A stretch of DNA of 64,000 bases from Loxodes magnus (taxonomy: Eukaryota; Ciliophora; Karyorelictea; Loxodida; Loxodidae). Below, piece after piece: positions 3,070 through 46,752 of this stretch. The stretch spans positions 620,001 through 684,000 of the forward strand of contig CAMPDV010000117.1 of the NCBI GenBank assembly GCA_946699065.1, written 5' to 3'. How positions within the stretch are numbered: the stretch's first letter is position 1; the number at the start of each line of letters is the position of its first letter. The translations under genes were made by a program, and so were the position numbers. The notes under the pieces were generated by a model that saw nothing but the letters and a program-made list of their open reading frames with translations, did not search any database and was not told the DNA's origin.

Positions 3070-4098
3070 TCAAGAATCGAAATATACTACGTTTGAATAT
3101 AGAAATTCATCCATATCCAAAACAGCTTCTAATTGTTCCTTTTGTCCTCCACTTCCTTGGAAATTAACTACAATCTTAGCTGGAAATTCGTATGTATACT
3201 TTTGCTAGCATCCTCCTCCGTTATACTTTTTATATAGTTAATCTATTTAAGGTTAAACTTTATTATCTAATTCTTGTTACAAAAGCTTTTTTATTTCTTT
3301 TTAACCTTTAGGCTGTGAATATGAGGAATAGTCTAGTACACAGCAAGCTTAGAAACTTGGATGTCCTTCCAAATAATGTATAGCTCCCATTCTATAAGTA
3401 ATATTATAAATGTTTGCTCTATGTCCTCTTGAAGGAACACCATCATCAGAAATTAAACTCGTTATGCATCCAAAAGGCGAATATTTTCCATAATTACAGT
3501 TTTCTCCAGTAGAAAACGGATTATCAGCATGCTTATCCATTCTTTTCGAATAATTTTATCGATCAGAACCTACATGACCTACTAAGTTATTCTAAACTGA
3601 ATCTTTAGCATGATCTTTACAAGCTTGATGAATTTATTCATTCCAAATCAAAGGTTTCAAAGACTCTTATCTTTTTAAATATTCAATTGCTTCTTAACAT
3701 GCTGCGGCACCTTCTTTAGTTACTAGATTACCAAAATCATACCTTAATTTATTCTCTTAAAAAAATGGTAATAAATCTTAAAGGAGTTCTGCAGCAAACT
3801 ATGGATAAACTCTACAAATGTTTTGAGCCCAAAATATTTCTCTATCTTTTTAATTGACATTTGATGGAACAGTATCACGAATTTTGCTAGCTTTAAAAAC
3901 AGCCTTCACATCTATGAAATCCTAAATATGTTATTTAGGATCTCTATTAGGAGTAATAAACATTGAAACAGTCAATTTAACTCTATTACCCTCTTTTTAT
4001 TATGTAGCCCCATATTTTTAAGAACCTTAAGCTTTTGGATTTTATTGAATCTCAATTTCATTTTCCTGTCTTTATTGGGCCTCACAGCAGCTTCCCAT
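3070..4098 (-). CDS. CAP/SCP-domain protein, MGSCC start (copy A1)
   Basis: Intronless frame of 342 residues with TAA/TAG read as Gln, ending in TGA. It begins MGSCC, the pattern for N-myristoylation of Gly2 plus palmitoylation of Cys4/5, so I infer a membrane-tethered cytosolic protein rather than a secreted one. A Gln-rich linker follows. The second half is a CAP (SCP/PR-1-like) domain: GH at ~174-175, GEN, then the signature DDGVPSRGHR with His at ~226, then YRMGA. Sequence after the domain is conserved in all five copies. CAP proteins bind ions, lipids or sterols in other lineages; the role here is unknown. A close paralogue lies at 21029-22231 on the same strand, with homology extending into the 3' flank. 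I chose this start because MGxCC is shared by all copies. Confidence 0.9.
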
Positions 4099-21028: not shown

Positions 21029-22231
21029 TCAAGATTCAAAATATACTACGTTTGAATATAGAAATTCATCCATATCCAAAACAGCTTCTAATTGCTCTTT
21101 TTGTCCTCTACTTCCTTGGAAATTAACTACAATCTTAGCTGGAAATTCGTATGTATATCTTTGCTAGCATCCTCCTCCGTTATACTTTTTATATAGTTAA
21201 TCTATTTAAGGTTAAACTTTATTATCTAATTCTTGTTACAAAAGCTTTTTTATATCCTTTTAACCTTTAGGCTATGAATATGAGGAAAAATCTAGTACAC
21301 AGCAAGCTTAGAAACTTGGATGTCCTTCCAAATAATGTATAGCTCCCATTCTATAAGTAATATTATAAATGTTTGCTCTATGTCCTCTTGAAGGAACACC
21401 ATCATCAGAAATTAAACTCGTTATGCATCCAAAAGGCGAATATTTTCCATAACTACAGTTTTCTCCAGTAGAAAACGGATTATCAGCATGCTTATCCATT
21501 CTTTTCGAATAATTTTATCGATCAGAACCTACATGACCTACTAAGTTATTCTAAACTGAATCTTTAGCATGATCTATGCAAGCTTGATGAATTTATTCAT
21601 TCCAAATCAAAGGTTTCAAAGACTCTTATTTTTTTAAATATTCAATTGCTTCTTTACATGCTGCAACACCTTCTTTAGTCACTAGATTACCAAAATCATA
21701 CCTTAATCTAAATTCTTAAAAAAATGGTAATAAATCTTCAATGAGTTCTGCAGCAAACTATGGATAAACTCTACAAATGTTTTGAGCCCAAAATATTTCT
21801 CTATCTTTTTAATTGACATTTGATGGAACAGTATCACGAATTTTGCTAGCTTTAAAAACAGCCTTCATGTCTATGATGTCCTAAATATGTTATTTAGGAT
21901 TTCTATTAGGAGGAATAAACATCGAAAGACTTATCTATTGTTTTCTACTATCTTTTATAACTTCTTGCTTACTTTTGCTTTTTTGCTCTTATTTACTTTC
22001 TGCATTTTCCTATTTTTTATTTTTATTTGTTTCTTCTTTTTATTTTTATTTCGTTTCCTCGTTTTTTTATTAATTTTTATCTTATTTTTAACTTTCTTTT
22101 TTTACTTCTTATTAGATCTCTTTTTTAGTCTCCTGCTGCTATGGAACTTCATATTTCTGGGACTTTTTATGATCCTCTATCTCGGAAGATTCTTTTTTTT
22201 ATTTTTGTTAGGGTTTACAACAATTTCCCAT
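21029..22231 (-). CDS. CAP/SCP-domain protein, MGNCC start (copy A2)
   Basis: Intronless frame of 400 residues, TAA/TAG = Gln, TGA stop. It starts MGNCC (predicted myristoylation plus palmitoylation). An ~85-residue linker follows that is almost entirely Lys, Gln, Glu and Ser. From about residue 90 it is nearly identical to copy A1: FKASK block, GHVGS, GENCSYG, DDGVPSRGHR and YRMGA. DNA identity with 3070-4098 is high from the stop to ~21925 and then ends abruptly, so the linker has been replaced or grown independently. The canonical CAP signature is intact. Probably a membrane-anchored CAP protein with a long charged tether. Confidence 0.9.
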
Positions 22232-25937: not shown

Positions 25938-27020
25938 TCAAGGATCGAAGAGAACTATATTTGGATAAAGTAAAGCTTCCGTGTCTAACGTCACTTCGAA
26001 ATTTTCCTTCTATCCGCCACTTCCCTCAAATTCTACCTATAACACTGCTGGAAAACCAAAATCATATTTTTATTGCCAACCTCCTCCTCTATACTTTTTA
26101 ACACACTCGTCTAACTAAGGCTAGACTTTAGCACTAAGTTAATCTTGGATTTACTACTTTATATCACCCTAATCTTTTGGCTATGAATATGTCGAATAGT
26201 TCATAACTCCTATAGCTTTCAAAGCAGGATGACCTTCCATATAACTTAAAGCTCCCATCCTATATTTCTAACTTAAAAGGTTATCTCTGTTTCCTTTCGT
26301 TTTATTTCCATCGTCAATCAGAATGTTTAATACTAATGCAAAAGGCGTGAACTTTCCATAAGTACAGTTTTCTGCAGTATTTAAAGGACTATCGCAATAT
26401 TTATCCATTCGGAATTGGAAGTTCTTTTTATTGCTTCCTACATGTCCGAATAAGTTATTCTAAACGGAATCTTAAGCGTGATCTTTGCATGCTTAATAAA
26501 TGTCGTTATTCCAAATGAGGGGCTATGAAGGCTTTGCATTTTTACATGCTTCAATAGCTGACTTACAAGCTTCGACTCCTTCTTTAGTTTGTTAGTTAAC
26601 ACCTTAATACTTTAAAAGAATTCCTTAGTAAAACTATTGTAAATCTTCTAAGAGTTCGGCAGCAAACAAGGGATAAGCTCGGACGATATTAAGAGCCCAA
26701 AATCTTTCTCTATCGACTTGATTGACGCTTTCAGGAACGGTATCATGTATTTTACTAGCTTTGAAGACAGGAGTGATATCAAGTATATCTTGAGCAGGTA
26801 AATTCGGATTTCTGTTTTCAGGAAGGAAAGTTTTAAGAGAAAAAGGCTTAGGCGGTTCAGGTTCAACTTTAGGTTCTTCTTTTGGTTTTGGAGAATCAAC
26901 TTTTATGGGTATTTGCTACAAGGGTTCTTCCTTTTATCTAACCATTTAAACTTAAGGATTTTAAGCCACAGGCACAGGCTTAGCAATGGTAGTGTTCTTA
27001 CGTTCACAGCAATTACCCAT
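25938..27020 (-). CDS. CAP-like protein, MGNCC start (copy B1)
   Basis: Intronless 360-residue frame with TAA/TAG = Gln and a TGA stop. It starts MGNCC, followed by a Pro/Glu/Lys linker with KPKEEPKVEPEPPKP. The block FKASKIHDTVPESVNQVDRE is shared with B2 and B3. The C-terminal half aligns with the A copies, but the CAP signature is altered: DDGVPSRGHR of A becomes a DDGN-K-KGNR type, losing the signature His. GHVGS and YRMGA are kept. Near-identical DNA to 30107-31105 (inverted) and 45742-46752. Probably still a folded CAP domain whose ion-binding site has changed. Confidence 0.88.
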
Positions 27021-30106: not shown

Positions 30107-31105
30107 ATGGGGGTTTGTTGCGAAAAAGAAAGAGATGAACATATTTATGAGACTTAAATATTAAGTTAAATTCCTACAAAAATTTCAAAACAAGTTGCCT
30201 TTACTGTTTAAGTTTTCCTTCCTGAAAACAGAGATCCGAATTTACCTGCTCATGAAATACTTGATATCACTCCTGTCTTCAAAGCTAGTAAAATACATGA
30301 TACCGTTCCTGAAAGCGTCAATCAAGTCGATAGAGAAAGATTTTGGGCTCTTAATATCGTCCGAGCTTATCCCTTGTTTGCTGCCGAACTCTTAGAAGAT
30401 TTACAAAAGTTTTACTAAGGAAATCTTTTAAAGTATTAAGGTGTTAGCTAACAAACTAAAGAAGGAGTCGAAGCTTGTAAGTCAGCTATTGAAACATGTA
30501 AAAATGCAAAACCTGCAAAGCCCCTCATTTGGAATAACGAAATTTATTAAGCATGCAAAGATCACGCTTAAGATTCCGTTAAGAATAACTTATTCGGACA
30601 TGTAGGAAGCAATAAAAAGAACTTCCAATTCCGAATGGATAAATATTGCGATAGTCCTTTAAATACTGCAGAAAACTGTACTTATGGAAAGTTCACGCCT
30701 TTTGCATTAGTATTAAACATTCTGATTGACGATGGAAATAAAACGAAAGGAAACAGAGATAACCTTTTAAGTTAGAAATATAGGATGGGAGCTTTAAGTT
30801 ATATGGAAGGTCATCCTGCTTTGAAAGCTATAGGAGTTATGAACTATTCGACATATTCATAGCCAAAAGATTAGGGTGATATAAAGTAGTAAATCCAAGA
30901 TTAACTTAGTGCTAAAGTCTAGCCTTAATTAGACGAGTGTGTTAAAAAGTATAGAGGCGGGCAGTGGAATTAAAAATATGATTTTGGTTTTCCAGCAGTG
31001 TTATAGGTAGAATTCGAGGGAAGTGGCGGATAGAAGGAAAATTTCGAAGTGACGTTAGACACGGAAGCTTTACTTTATCCAAATATAGTTCTCTTCGATT
31101 CTTGA
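30107..31105 (+). CDS. CAP-like protein, MGVCC start (copy B2)
   Basis: Intronless 332-residue frame, TAA/TAG = Gln, TGA stop. It starts MGVCCEKERDE (predicted dual acylation) with only a short linker before the shared FLPENR block. The rest follows B1: VFKASKIHDTVPE, GHVGSNKKN, TAENCTYGK, then DDGNKTKGNRDN in place of the canonical RGHR signature, and YRMGA. It faces copy B1 in inverted orientation about 3 kb away, so B1 and B2 form a large inverted pair. Conservation of the frame without any TGA argues it is functional. Confidence 0.88.
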
Positions 31106-35896: not shown

Positions 35897-38800
35897 TCAT
35901 ACAAAAGCTTTCCAATCTTCATGCTTTTTATTGTTCTAAACTAATCCCATTCTAATCACTTTTACTTTTAATTTGTTAATTGTTTTATAGCTTATATCCT
36001 TTATCCAGAATACTGAAAATGGTAAAATAAGAACTTCTTTCTCATTTTTATAAACTGAAAGTTCCTCTATTTTTGCAGCATGTAAACATTGGGCTGGAAT
36101 GTTGATTTCTAATAAAGATGGTATTTATCCTTATGGAGAAGCTCTAATTTTTCCTTAAGCAAAATTTTTATCAGTAGTAGTAGCCAAATAGTGAGGAATT
36201 CTAAACCCTTTCTAATTTCTTACTTCAGCATCTGAACCTTTAAAAACTTCATCGTCTACAGCTCTATAAACTGTATAAGATTTTTTGTTTTATGGAGCTC
36301 CATCATCAATAATATATCTATTAAGCATCCTAATTCAAGGAATAAGGCTTTTAACAGCATTTTGGCAAAATTGTAAAGTTAAATTCCATTTATTATTTGC
36401 TGCACCTTACTAGAATTTAATTAAACTAATTAAGATTCTAGTAGATTACTATGATATTCCATTCCCAGTTCATAGACGTACACTGGCATATTTTGCTAAT
36501 GTATGTTCATCTTGAATATTCCATTAGTATGATCTAAAAAGTTGAACATATTATTTAAACTCATTAACAAGATTTAAGCCTGATTTTTTCAAGCCTTCTT
36601 CAATTTCCTTTATAGAATATAATCTTTTTGATTACCTGTATTCTACCATATAGAAACTTTGCTGAGACTACTCTAAATTTACAAATATTAATCCTATTGA
36701 GCAAGTTTCTTTGCCACAGTATAAACAAATCACTTTATTACATGTAGGACACTATTTGTCAGGGCATATACTGCATAAGTTCATTTAGCAATGATTGCAC
36801 TATTTTTAAGAGCATTTCTTGCAAAGCTGCTATTAACATTACTCGCAATTAACTTATATGCAATCTTTGCAAAAAGTAAGTTAGCAAGACATACATTTCT
36901 TTATACAATTATTACAAACAATTTTTTAACATTCCTAGCATTGTGAAGAAAGGCAATTCATACAGTATGTTTTCAAGCAGAGCAAACATAGTTGCTGTAC
37001 GCATTCTTTGCAGCAAATGTTTTAGCATTGGAGACAAACTTAGCTATTGCATTTATCGCATATTATTCTTGTGCAACTATCACAGTACGAAATGATACAA
37101 TTTAGGCAGATAAATTCCTTGCAATCATAGCATATAATTTCACATTTCTTACAAAATGGACGCTAACACTTTCAGCATCTTTTAATACTACATTAATTGC
37201 AGATAGGCTGTTAGCATTTTTAGCATTACTATAGATTACAATTTATGCACAATGAACTTGAACAGTCAGAACAAGTACTCGTTTAGCAAGTTAAACAAAT
37301 TGGGCTGTTACAGTTTGAACACCAAATAAGCAAACATTATTAGCAAATCACTTTTTGGCAGTTTATGCACTTGTTTACTTTACAATCTTGGCACACAGAA
37401 GTTAAACAGTTAGAACACTTTTGAGTTTAGCATTAATTGCAAATATAATTTTAGCATTCTTCACACTTTTTAGATAAACATTAATTGCAAATTAAGTTTT
37501 TGCATTTTACGCATTATTTCTACTTACATTCTGGACAATTTTAAAATTAACAATTAGAAATATGCTTCAAGTCTTGGATAGGATTTTTACAGTTTGAGCA
37601 TTATTGAGTGTTATTTGGTACTTAAGATTAGTTTTAATACGACTAAACAGTAGGTTGAGGATTTTATTAGAGGAATGATTACTATACTTAACTTTCATGT
37701 TACTTATAATTTTGAGCTTAGTTAACATTTATCTTGTTCTTTTATTAATCCATTTGGTATAAATATCTATTATCTTGCTAAATAAAGTCTTATTTATTTA
37801 TTTAGATTGATTAATTAGCAGGAAATGGTTTTTCTAAAACCTATATCTCTTTTTATTATTATTAATAGCTAGTAGCTGGATTATTTTAATAGCTAACCTA
37901 GTTCTGCTTGATTTTATTATCTATTTGCAAACTTTAATTATTTTATGGAGTAAATTGTTGATTGCTTCAGGTGGCTATTGAACTTTACTATAAATTTTAA
38001 TTTATAGTAGCTTAATTTGTCTAGTTAGCTGGATTGTTTAGCTAATAAAAATGATTCTTAATAGTATTTCCACTTTAATATTAGAAGCTTTGATCCTAAT
38101 AGTTTGATAAATTCTAGCTTTGAATTTAAGATTTTTCTAAGATTAAGCTTTTGTCATTCTAATAATTAATTTAATTAGTTTGAGGTTGATGAGAGTATAG
38201 TGAGTGATTTAAATTCTGGTTTTATAGATAAACCACTTCAAACTTAACTAATTGTCTAAGGCTTTGAGTAATTTTTTGCAAAAGATCTTAATTGATTAAT
38301 AGCTTTATTTAAAATTAAGACTGTAGAGGGGTTAATACTTTGCTATTTTAAACTTATTATAAGCTTTTCCTGAACTTTAGCAATTATTATATATCATTCT
38401 CAAATTGAAGTTAGTGAGTTTGCTTATAAAGCAGTTATAGAGTTTGCTGCTATTACTATAATGAATTTAAGGATTCATTTTAGGTTTAATTAAAGTTATT
38501 TACTAAGTCTTTCTATTATTTTACTTATTCTTCTAGAACTGTTTGAATAGCTTAATGTAAAGTGTTTAGTTAATTATTCAATGTCTACTCATTTTTGCTA
38601 TACTGATCTACAACTTGTTACCTGAGCTTTGATAATTAGCTTAATTCTTCTTAAATGCTTTAAAGATTTTTCTAAATAAACTGATTAGAAATAGTTTGAG
38701 ATACTTCATTTTTGCAGATTTAAAACGCTGTTTCTTAGTTACTAATTTGGTGATTTTGAAGCTAACATTTTGTAGAGATGCAAATTTAGCATACAAATTC

Positions 38801-39751
38801 ATTGCAGTTCATACAGATTTAGTTAGACTAATAATAATGGGATAAGCATTTATAATATGACTAGTTACTACTTTAGCTATTAAGATTAGGCTTTCACTAT
38901 ATCTAATTGTTTTAGCCTTCTTATGCCTATTAAGATTATTACACTGTAAATTAGCTTATTGGCTAATTTAAATCTTATTAATTCTTTTAGTTTTGGAAGC
39001 TATTAATAGGTTGTTATGATTGCTAAGAGTTCAATAAATCAGGATTTTACTGTTAAGTCTAGTCTTTATTTTATTGCTATTTCAAATCAAACTAAAAAGT
39101 GTTTTAGTTATAAAAGAAGGGTAAATTTTAAACTTATTCAAGATTTTATTATAACGCTTACTTTTAAGAAAAGCTGGGATCTTAGTATTAAGGATAAAAA
39201 GACTTGCTAATAGGAATTTACTAATTAAGCGACTAGTTAATATCCTAATAAGTGGATTAAGCAAGATAATTGTTATTTTGCTAAGAATCTTTCAGATTTA
39301 GAGTTTAGCCTTAATTTTATTACTAATACTGATTAATTGTATTAGAGTTTGCTATGCTCTATTAAGCTAACTAATCTGTTTAATGCTACTAGTTATTTTG
39401 GTTTAAAGTTTGTATATTCTATTGCTAATTGAAATTGTTAAAGTTCTATTAATTAGCCTTCTAGTTATGCTAACTGTCAAATATTTGAGGAACTTAAAAT
39501 TAATTATTAGGTAATTAAGCATTTCATTGTGGGCTTCTAATTTATTGCATCATTTCTTCATTTCTACTTATTTGAAGACTAGGCTAATTGCAGGAGAGAC
39601 AATAATACATATTTTACTATTTATTAGTTTCCATGCAAATCTAGCAAAAGGTATGGCCACAACTAAGAGAAAATGGAATTCTTTCAGCAGTATAAGGTTA
39701 GTTACATTTACAAAATAGACAAGGTAAATTTGGAGTCTCTTACTTTAGCAT
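35897..39751 (-). CDS. RING finger + Cys-repeat array + ADP-ribosyltransferase
   Basis: One uninterrupted frame of 1284 residues, no intron, if TAA/TAG = Gln and six internal TGA codons (76, 287, 595, 860, 1094, 1139) = Trp; it ends in TGA. Residues 11-54 are a textbook C3HC4 RING (C-x2-C-x16-C-x-H-x2-C-x2-C-x11-C-x2-C), predicted E3 ubiquitin ligase. A long Gln/Asn-rich region holds a small Cys/His finger near 310-335. Residues ~715-1020 are an array of C-x2-C-x4 units. The C-terminus (~1090-1284) is an arginine-type ADP-ribosyltransferase: YTVYRAV with Arg ~1163, an ATTTD block ~1190-1194, and E-K-E at 1237-1239. The R-[ST]-ExE set is complete, so activity is plausible. Likely intracellular; no signal peptide. 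Start chosen at the first Met before the RING. Confidence 0.88.
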
Positions 39752-40603
39752 TTTATAAAAATAAGTGTTTTGGCTAAATTAAAGTTACTAAATATACAGT
39801 TATGATTGCTTAAAATAATTATAATCATAATTAATTATATCTAAATATAATTGTCATCTCATCATATAATCTCCTTATTTTCTGCATTTATAAATTTGCT
39901 ATTATTCTACAATTAAGAAATTAAATTAATTTAGATTTATTTAGTTACAATAATATTGAATGAAATATTTTTCTACTATAGCAAAATTATAAAATCTACT
40001 TTTATTTAATTAATTATACTCTTAAGATAATCCTAATTAAGCATTTCATTAATTTAAATTTATTAAAACATAACTAAGCAACACACTAAGTATATTTATC
40101 TAAGGATATTCCTTTTACTAGTGTACTTATAGCACAACATTTCTCTCTAATTATTTCTAATTTTTATTTTGTTTTCGATGACTAAATAAAAAGTTAATAA
40201 AAACGTTAGAAAGAATTCAATTAAAAGATTTAGATCTAATAGTCTATTTTATTAATAACTAAATATTTCTAGCCTATTAAAATAATTATTTTTAAAATGA
40301 CTAAACTAAAATATTATCTTAATACTTTTACACTAAATTTTTATTTTTATTTCTAAAGTTAAATTTAAAATTTCTTGGCATAATAATCAACAAAATAAGA
40401 AACTTAGTATAAATAAATTATTATAGAATGTTAATACACATTAAGTTAAAAATAGATTTAGAATATATTAATTTTAATATTTTATACTTATTTACTTGCT
40501 CTAAGCTTCTATTTAATTGAATCTGATTTAATGGATAGTTGAAATATAATTTCTCATTCTAGAGATTTATTAAAAATAAGATTAATTGATTACATTTAGA
40601 AAG

Positions 40604-41747
40604 TTACAAATTAACCTTTAGGTAGACCATTCCTAGCTTTGGGTGATTATAACTGCGGGTAAATTTAGTAAGGAACGTTTTCCATTCTTTGTAATATTGA
40701 GCTATATTCTGAAAATAACTTTCCAACTCTTCCTTTTTCCACATTTCCTTCACAAAGAATAAAAACTCTATTCTTTTTTCAATTAGGAAAGGAATTTTTC
40801 TTTCATTTATATATCTAACGCTTTTACTTTCGTGTATGATAGTAGCAATACCATACAAATCTTATTCTCTAAAGTCTTCTTTTATAAAGCTGGGATAAAA
40901 TAGCTTGGCAGTTTTGGTGAATGTCTCAATAAATTAGTCTTAAAGCATCTCAAGAAAGCTTGTGAAAATAGCTTCAGTTATTAGTTTGAATACCTTTAGC
41001 TTCTAAGGAATAAAGAAAGATTCTCCGTTTTGTTATTCAATATTTCCTACACATTTTAAAATGTACTCTATGTGATCATCCTAAATAAAAGCTTACAAGT
41101 TCACGAAATTGACTAATATCTATTTTTGTATGCTCTTCAAAAGGTATCTTTTAAGAAATTGTTGAAATGATATCTAAGCTATACGCAGGACAAGGATACA
41201 TTAGAATAGGAGAAGAATTGAAAGAATATTCAAAAACATTAAGAGCTTACAAATAATCTATTATCTGCTGCTTAGAGGCTTAAGTTTAAAGAAAGATATT
41301 CTCTAAAGTTTCAAATGTAAATTGTTTTTCTTCTTATTTAAGTTAAGCTAACATTTGAGGAGAGTAAGGAATTAAATTTTTACCTATTTTGCTTAATTCT
41401 GGAGCTCTTATATCTATTTTATAGATTGAAGAAGTTAAAGTTTTTACAATTCTCTATTAAGTTTCTTCTGCCTAATCTCTGCTTTCTTCATTTTCTATAA
41501 TATTTGTTAAAACAAAACTATTAGAACTTCTTCACTCTAATACGCTATATGTTTCATTTTCACTACACATTACTGCTTAATCATTATGACTTCCTTTTAT
41601 TTTCAGAACACACTTTTCTTCAGTTTCCTATGATTCGCTCTCCTTTCTTTGCTACTTAGACATAAAGTCTAGCAAAAGCTAATCAATTTCAGGAGGAAAT
41701 TCGAAGATAAGAAAGTTTTCAAGTTTATCAAGGTAAATGTTTTACAT
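40604..41747 (-). CDS. DSCC1: Sister-chromatid cohesion protein Dcc1 homologue
   Basis: Dcc1 is a subunit of the alternative clamp loader RFC-Ctf18-Dcc1-Ctf8, which loads or unloads PCNA and supports sister-chromatid cohesion in the nucleus. Two exons (41097-41747, 41080-40604) are joined across a 16-nt intron; both exons are multiples of three. Recognisable blocks are KGSHNDQAVMCSENETYSV near the N-terminus, a central helical region with DDHIEYILKCVG after the intron, and the C-terminal winged-helix part with EKRIEFLFFVKEMWKKEEL and FLTKFTRS. Codon 72 is TGA, read as Trp. The expected end is at a TAA (40604); the next in-frame TGA is at 40217, so termination is unresolved. The start lies 17 nt from the stop of the upstream ORF. 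Confidence 0.82.
41081..41096 (-). other. 16-nt intron in the Dcc1 homologue
   Basis: GTAAGCTTTTATTTAG on the minus strand. Upstream codons end in REL and the frame resumes with DDHIEYILK; without removal the Dcc1 frame is lost. GT-AG boundaries, AT-rich interior. Confidence 0.85.
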
Positions 41748-45082: not shown

Positions 45083-45741
45083 AAGCATACTATTTGCAAC
45101 ATCTAAGATAACTAGTATTTGATGATGCTATTAGTGCTGTTACTTGAAATAAACTTAATTACCTTAAATAATAATAATCAATTATCTACCAATAGATATA
45201 CATTAATTTAAATATATATCATTTAACAATAAATCATTTAAGAACTAGCATTATCTAAATTAATAGCAAGCATGATTTAGGGAAGTGATAGAAGTAAATG
45301 CATTTAAATAATAAACTAACACATAAATTTAGATAGCAAATTTAATAATTAATATTAGTTTAATAATAATGGCAGAGAAATAAATAAACTAAATTATTAC
45401 CACCAACTAAATGTAGAACATTTATTTATCTCTATTTCTACATTTACCTTTATAATATATTAATATCAAACTAAAATCAAAACTACCTAAAATACCTATT
45501 TTTAGCCCATCTACTTTTACTAATTTATGCTTTTTCTTCAGGAAATAGCTTTCCATTATAAAATACATTCATATCAACTAAACATAATTATTATCTTTTT
45601 ATACTTTAGAGTTTATTTAATAATAGATAGAAAGATTGCTGCCATCATTCTTTAATTCTAAACAACTAAGGTAATTAAATTCAATAAAGCTAGCTTTCAG
45701 GAATCAACTTTAATATTTAATTCAATCTTCATTTTATAAAT
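45083..45741. other. AT-rich spacer
   Basis: No feature seen, although the frame of the preceding ORF happens to stay free of TGA here. Confidence 0.4.
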
Positions 45742-46752
45742 ATGGGAATTTGCTGTGAAAAGGAAAGATAGCAACCTTCTTAGCCTCAGGATCTTCAACC
45801 CAAAAATCAGGGAGAAATTCCTACCAAAATTTAAAAAAAAGTTGCCTTTACTGTTTAAGTTTTCCTTCCTGAAAACAGAGAGCCGAATTTACCTGCTCAT
45901 GAAATACTTGATATCACTCCTGTCTTCAAAGCTAGTAAAATACATGATACCGTTCCTGAAAGCGTCAATCAAGTCGATAGAGAAAGATTTTGGGCTCTTA
46001 ATATCGTCCGAGCTTATCCCTTGTTTGCTGCCGAACTCTTAGAAGATTTACAAAAGTTTTACTAAGGAAATCTTTTAAAGTATTAAGGTGTTAGCTAACA
46101 AACTAAAGAAGGAGTCGAAGCTTGTAAGTCAGCTATTGAAACATGTAAAAATGCAAAACCTGCAAAGCCCCTCATTTGGAATAACGACATTTATTAAGCA
46201 TGCAAAGATCACGCTTAAGATTCCGTTTAGAATAACTTATTCGGACATGTAGGAAGCAATAAAAAGAACTTCCAATTCCGAATGGATAAATATTGCGATA
46301 GTCCTTTAAATACTGCAGAAAACTGTACTTATGGAAAGTTCACGCCTTTTGCATTAGTATTAAACATTCTGATTGACGATGGAAATAAAACGAAAGGAAA
46401 CAGAGATAACCTTTTAAGTTAGAAATATAGGATGGGAGCTTTAAGTTATATGGAAGGTCATCCTGCTTTGAAAGCTATAGGAGTTATGAACTATTCGACA
46501 TATTCATAGCCAAAAGATTAGGGTGATATAAAGTAGTAAATCCAAGATTAACTTAATGCTAAAGTCTAGCCTTAAATAGACGAGTGTGTTAAAAAGTATT
46601 AAGGAGGAGGTTGGTAATCAAAATATGATTTTGGCTTTCCAGCAGTGATTCAAGTAGAATTTGAAGGAAAAAGTGGATAGAAGGAAAATTTCGAAGAGAC
46701 GTTAGACACAGAAGCTTTGCTTTATCCAAACGTGGTTCTGTTCGATTGTTGA
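45742..46752 (+). CDS. CAP-like protein, MGICC start (copy B3)
   Basis: Intronless 336-residue frame, TAA/TAG = Gln, TGA stop. MGICCEKERQQ start, a short Gln/Pro linker, then sequence nearly identical to B2, including the modified signature lacking the RGHR His and the C-terminal LYPNVVLFDC ending. It retains YQGGGWQSKYDF where B2 has a variant, showing independent small changes near residue 295. Distance from B2 is about 15.6 kb, same orientation. Flanks differ from those of B2, as expected of dispersed copies. Confidence 0.88.

Follow-up and report, generated by a model that had tools for sequence, protein, structure and literature searches.

ADP-ribosyltransferases that carry a ubiquitin-pathway domain on the same chain are known among the PARP-type enzymes. 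As described in the part of the source available to us, PARP6/8 contain UBCc or UBA domains, a Dictyostelium Clade 3 PARP has an N-terminal U-box and PARP10 possesses UIMs (PMC4245714). Bacterial ubiquitin-directed ADP-ribosyltransferases are represented by the SidE-type enzymes and CteC, which are injected effectors according to the accessible sections of the respective articles (PMC5518988, PMC10810742). Here, we describe a gene from Loxodes magnus, located in a 64,000-nucleotide stretch of contig CAMPDV010000117.1 (positions 620,001 to 684,000, referred to as the window), whose product combines a RING segment, a long Cys array and an ADP-ribosyltransferase (ART) domain. It resembles the PARP-type enzymes, as far as the source excerpt describes them, in having an ADP-ribosyltransferase and a ubiquitin-pathway domain on one chain, but these contain a PARP domain, whereas the Loxodes ART belongs to the PF01129 class and is joined to a RING, a B-box-like finger, an array or a USP domain. 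With the SidE-type enzymes and CteC, compared by their published descriptions, it would share ubiquitin-directed ART chemistry, which is what we propose for the Loxodes fusion, but it differs in not being a bacterial effector. The N-terminus also follows the order of TRIM (RBCC) proteins, namely RING, B-box-like finger and a coiled-coil-like segment read by eye, but differs from these in a B-box far under the Pfam cut-off, in Gln-rich linkers and in the C-terminal Cys array and ART. To our knowledge, neither the SidE-type enzymes nor CteC have a RING or a Cys array, and we know of no TRIM C-terminal domain that the combination of array and ART resembles. In the open-licence literature, as far as its accessible text extends, a PF01129-type ART fused to a RING (and a Cys array) was not found. 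The statement of a preliminary description of this DNA that no standard family has this order therefore holds, within this search, for a PF01129-type ART with a RING, but is too wide for ADP-ribosyltransferases as such, given the published PARP-type ARTs with UBCc, UBA or U-box (PMC4245714, in the part available). The reading that we favour on the basis of the sequence is that of one cellular karyorelict protein, with a TRIM-like head, a Cys-array stalk and a PF01129-type mono-ADP-ribosyltransferase.

The gene occupies positions 35897..39751 on the minus strand and is a single frame of 1284 codons plus stop, which starts with an ATG at 39751 and ends with a TGA at 35897-35899. From the N- to the C-terminus, it codes for the RING, a Gln/Asn-rich linker (aa 63-296, 38864..39565, delimited by sequence and paralogue comparison), the B-box-like finger, the coiled coil, a second Gln/Asn-rich linker (aa 521-728, 37568..38191), the CxxC array and the ART, all on the minus strand. 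The fusion of RING, Cys array and ART reported in the preliminary description is thus present in one frame, and its order is kept in four copies; the B-box-like finger and the coiled-coil-like segment between the RING and the array had been missed. When entire proteins were used for hmmscan, no families were returned for the window's protein, L026, L029 or L030, and families emerged segment by segment, which is probably due to the Gln and Cys bias of these proteins. A separate upstream neighbour outside the fusion, at 40217..41584 on the minus strand, codes for Dcc1 (PF09724, 36.7 bits, cut-off 22.9). Elsewhere in the window, five genes are related to each other (3106-4098, 21065-22231 and 25941-27020 on the minus strand, 30107-31105 and 45736-46752 on the plus strand); a CAP domain (PF00188) was found in both of those scanned, the MG-x-CC N-termini of the five suggest lipid anchoring, and TGA is seen in them solely as a stop.

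Under table 6, the fusion frame contains six internal TGA codons, on which the preliminary description is silent, compared to five TGG codons, and it is open only if TGA can stand for Trp. For L. magnus, use of NCBI table 27 has been reported, in which UGA is the sole stop and is also able to encode Trp (PMC11441545, as stated in the available part). For comparison with other ART domains of the same genome, 25 domains were examined and 22 were aligned; L021, L023 and L024 were left out since their BLAST matches fell below the threshold of E 1e-10. In the first alignment column with a TGA of the window's gene, 12 domains have TGA and 10 have TGG, and in the second one 19 have TGA and three have TGG, with no other residue in either column. 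Some other TGA columns are less clean, but overall TGG is the codon found most frequently opposite TGA. As TGA and TGG alone occupy both of these columns, the alignment supports a reading of the internal TGA codons as Trp. The GC content is 27% across the fusion gene and 18% in either flank, and the coding GC is continuous; compared to the value of 33.5% given for L. magnus coding sequences in the consulted part of the genome study (PMC11441545), this is a mild mismatch.

The RING segment (aa 1-62, 39566..39751, minus strand) was assigned from the alignment, from a zf-RING_5 match below the cut-off (24.9 bits, cut-off 27.9, E 2e-5) and from its closest paralogue L026, which reaches 32.4 bits and lies over the cut-off in four RING models. 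The RING of L030 is over the cut-off in one Pfam model and those of L029 and L051 in none. Candidate zinc ligands of the window's RING (aa 11-54) are C11/C14/C16, C31, H33, C36, C39, C51 and C54. All four fused copies retain the ligand positions, but with a C-x-C first pair as opposed to C-x2-C in L033; the window's protein has C11 as an additional Cys. A complete C3HC4 RING had been announced for this segment; its ligands are indeed present, but the conserved first pair has the C-x-C and not the C-x2-C spacing and the zf-RING_5 score stays below the cut-off. The final ligand pair reads C-L-S-C-N in the window's protein and C-I-S-C-S, C-I-I-C-N and C-S-T-C-N in the other copies. Active RING E3s usually have a Pro after the seventh ligand and a basic linchpin residue. 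Both are absent from the window's RING, as can be seen from its C-L-S-C-N, and residues typical of E2 contact are lacking. The B-box-like finger (aa 297-350, 38702..38863, minus strand) scores 10.5-11.6 bits with zf-B_box in the window's protein and its paralogues and is never above the cut-off of 24.1, and its pattern can be recognised by eye in L026, L027, L028 and L033. It is followed by the coiled-coil-like segment (aa 351-520, 38192..38701, minus strand), which was read by eye and is 61% identical to that of L026. Searching the genome with the RING of L026 gave 114 matches at E <= 1, among which L027 and L028 rank next after L026 itself and the window's gene, followed by a pair on contig C376. 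One of this pair, L033, codes for a RING, B-box and coiled coil and has neither array nor ART, and a genome search with the window's ART gave no match on C376. L033 therefore indicates that the parts of the fusion are separable modules.

The Cys array (aa 729-1018, 36698..37567, minus strand) contains 73 Cys in 290 residues, which form 35 CxxC knuckles with a spacing of exactly eight residues in 32 of 34 steps, so that the nearly unbroken C-x2-C-x4 repeat over about 300 residues noticed from the DNA is borne out. The best self-match of the array is found at a lag of 16, and 2000 shuffles of its residues gave a mean of 18 and a maximum of 29 CxxC, compared to the 35 observed. A Pfam scan of the array returned no match, and a PDB search gave weak Cys-rich matches alone, the top one being TRIM56 (E 0.067). 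From the CxxC pattern, we infer that the array binds zinc, and with its period of eight and no Pfam match it may represent an undescribed zinc solenoid. Structure predictions for the ART alone and for a 64-residue piece of the array had mean pLDDT values of 33 and 48, respectively, and the models are unusable. An array of this kind also stands before the ART in L018, L037, L038, L045 and L049, and that of L018 has more than 1600 residues, is built of long internal duplications and extends beyond the fetched piece. Array-ART genes form a cluster on contig C15 of the genome (G000, about 1.18-1.54 Mb), which comprises L012, L018, L029, L030, L037, L038, L045 and L049.

The ART domain (aa 1019-1284, 35900..36697, minus strand) matches PF01129 with 26.9 bits, above the gathering cut-off of 22.3, and PF03496 with 22.4 bits, below the cut-off of 23.4. 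PF01129 matches 13 of 15 family members at E 0.01, and a 15-row family profile matches the solved ARTs Vis (6.7e-5), Certhrax (4e-4) and rat ART2 (0.005), with the E-x-E of the window's ART in register with that of Vis; PDB searches with the in-frame window protein or a 4-row profile gave no relevant match. The putative catalytic Arg is Arg1163, which, like Glu1239, is invariant in the 15 aligned members, while Glu1237 is nearly so. The E-x-E motif reads Glu1237-Lys-Glu1239, and four of 22 family members have G-x-E. The expected Arg, Thr-Thr and E-x-E are hence all in place. However, the position of the S-T-S motif, opposite T-S-T-S of Vis, is occupied by Ala-Thr-Thr (1190-1192), and the window's ART is short of one defining residue, the first Ser of S-T-S, which is also replaced by Ala in most family members. 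The Arg, the E-x-E and the PF01129 score link the domain to the R-S-E mono-ARTs such as Vis, Certhrax and rat ART2, from which it differs by this Ala, by its position behind a RING and a Cys array and by the absence of a recognisable membrane anchor from the window's protein. PARP models had no match in the window's protein or the family members scanned, in which PF01129 and PF03496 were the sole ART-type matches. By these profile and motif comparisons, the domain is a predicted PF01129-class mono-ADP-ribosyltransferase with one motif deviation, and not a PARP. Among viral contigs, the ART profile gave 64 pattern matches and no confirmed relatives.

The fused order is found at four loci on three contigs, namely in the window's gene, L026, L027 and L028. 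In L026 on contig C88, the entire order from the RING through the ART is kept, with 59% protein identity across 1173 aligned codons, from the first to the last domain. L027 and L028 have the same part order and a common 20-base GT...AG intron; a mean intron length of 19.3 bases is given for L. magnus in the available part of the genome study (PMC11441545). Between the window's gene and L026, the dN/dS ratio (NG86) is 0.27 overall, 0.27 for the RING, 0.26 each for the B-box and the coiled coil, 0.38 for linker 1, 0.59 for linker 2, the least constrained part, 0.13 for the array and 0.22 for the ART; these values are rough, as dS is near 1 and is saturated in the array. With ratios below 1 in all segments, the pair is, by this estimate, under purifying selection. 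A tree of 22 ARTs unites the six RING-array-ART genes in a single clade (support 100/98); according to a warning of the tool, the positions of long branches in other groups could be wrong. That separate genes had been misread as one was considered and is ruled out by the order shared with other loci and by the selection along the full frame.

The window's ART has 69 matches in its own genome at E <= 10 and 64 at E <= 1e-7, the window's gene included; some of these rows are pieces of one gene and, since several loci are near-identical copies, the gene counts may include haplotigs. The upstream region was read for 42 ART domains, that is the 22 of the alignment and 20 more. Seven have a RING head, five a catalytically changed USP domain, 17 a receptor-like part and 13 other parts. 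Among the RING-headed genes, four have the RING-B-box-coiled coil-array order, two have a second RING type followed by an array, and in one (L051, G000 C104:715480-717480) a third RING type, below the Pfam cut-offs, and a coiled-coil-like segment lead straight to the ART with no array. The 13 others consist of five array genes whose N-terminus is outside the piece read, in which no RING was seen, four MGSC-type genes, three coiled coils and L044. The MGSC-type genes (L013, L014, L017 and L020) are near-copies with an MGSC N-terminus and G-x-E in place of E-x-E, and L013 and L014 have tandem repeats in addition. In the receptor-like genes (L012, L031, L032, L034-L036, L039-L043, L046-L048, L050, L052 and L053), the ART is at the protein end, and L053 shows the membrane tail alone. 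Most of them have a GPS-like W...C.C motif, recognised by eye, before transmembrane segments, and the Trp of this motif is often encoded by TGA; a strict version of the pattern matched six of 12 receptor-like genes tested, and Pfam GPS was not found in the three scanned. In L040 (G000 C984:146400-148400), the ART start and the rest are in different frames, indicating an intron or indel inside the gene. Overall, a ubiquitin-related part is seen in 12 of the 42 genes and none in the remaining 30, and the ART is therefore not bound to ubiquitin alone.

The USP domain lies upstream of the ART in the same frame in L016 and L022 (G000 C7718), L019 and L025 (C181) and L011 (C2132). Both members scanned match PF00443 (cut-off 23.9), L016 with 52.2 and L025 with 34.1 bits, and the USP regions of L011, L019 and L022 share an identity of 98% or more with that of L016. 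By eye, the Cys-box position reads D-F-Y in L016 and L025, with Asp for the catalytic Cys, and G-H-Y is replaced by N-Y-Y in all five, with Tyr for the catalytic His. Since both catalytic positions are changed, the domain resembles a ubiquitin reader more than a protease. These sister genes point to ubiquitin recognition being as likely a role for the partner domains as ubiquitin transfer.

What the fusion does can be read in several ways. Under table 6, the six in-frame TGA codons would be expected of a pseudogene, or of a chimera of adjacent genes or of the assembly, but TGA sits in invariant Trp columns of the ART family, coding GC is unbroken through the gene, and the same order at four loci on three contigs goes along with a dN/dS below 1 in every segment; we give this explanation hardly any credence. 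A pseudo-enzyme, in which the ART would bind NAD or a target and transfer no ADP-ribose, would fit with the substitution of the leading Ser of S-T-S by Ala, which most family members share. It is, however, very unlikely in view of the invariant Arg and last Glu, the nearly invariant first Glu of E-x-E among 15 members and the dN/dS of 0.22 for the ART.

The remaining readings concern the relation of the ART to ubiquitin. In the preliminary description, a bifunctional enzyme was envisaged, whose RING would ubiquitinate and whose ART would ADP-ribosylate the same target. The zinc-ligand positions kept in four fused copies, the selection acting on both RING and ART in the pair with L026, and the retained Arg and E-x-E are all consistent with this. 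But the residues at the E2 contact and linchpin positions are atypical in the last ligand pair of all four copies, and the sister USP with changed catalytic positions suggests that ubiquitin binding alone may matter, so that we regard this proposal as rather unlikely. The sequence comparisons gave no support to the defence role that was also suggested there. One could also imagine that the presumed zinc-binding parts serve in scaffolding or localisation only and that the ART has an unrelated target, for instance in membrane signalling, with an accidental link to ubiquitin. This would be in line with the ART standing behind receptor-like proteins (17/42), RING-less arrays (5), MGSC-type parts (4) and coiled coils (3), and with the abundance of RING genes in the genome (114 matches at E <= 1); yet three RING types and a USP domain joined to one ART family look non-random, and we consider an accidental link unlikely. 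An ART that works on ubiquitin or is guided by it is the simplest view to cover the RING and USP partners alike, and for this reason we favour it: that the fusion protein is a PF01129-type ADP-ribosyltransferase which acts on ubiquitin, or is steered by it, in this branch has in our estimate about an even chance of being correct. Against it stand the scores of the window's RING and B-box under the Pfam cut-offs, which is also true of the RINGs of L029 and L051, the C-x-C spacing and missing Pro of the RING, the Ala in S-T-S of most family members and the 30 genes in which no ubiquitin-related part is seen. Under this ubiquitin-linked model, the head would dimerise via its coiled coil and engage E2-ubiquitin or ubiquitinated complexes, and the array could serve as a rigid spacer that binds about 17 zinc ions, with two CxxC for each. 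The ART would then move ADP-ribose from NAD+ onto an arginine of ubiquitin or of the tagged protein. As no membrane anchor was seen in its sequence, we take the window's protein to be cytosolic. Within the family, the ART could be a common output module, for which the RING, USP-like, array and receptor parts would be interchangeable inputs.

Extending this, we tentatively suggest, while regarding it as doubtful, that a single expanded PF01129-type ART of Loxodes might be the shared output of receptors, RING/TRIM-like heads, USP-derived readers and giant arrays, with ubiquitin as cue or substrate in the ubiquitin-linked branch. If true, this would be a eukaryotic, self-encoded counterpart of the bacterial effectors that ADP-ribosylate ubiquitin. 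The links between ubiquitin and ADP-ribose known from the sources available to us in part are those of the PARP-type enzymes with ubiquitin domains (PMC4245714) and of the bacterial effectors, and a lineage of eukaryotes in which a PF01129-type ART has repeatedly gained RING, TRIM-like and USP partners would represent a separate invention of such a link. The Loxodes ART family offers several natural fusions in which this link can be tested.
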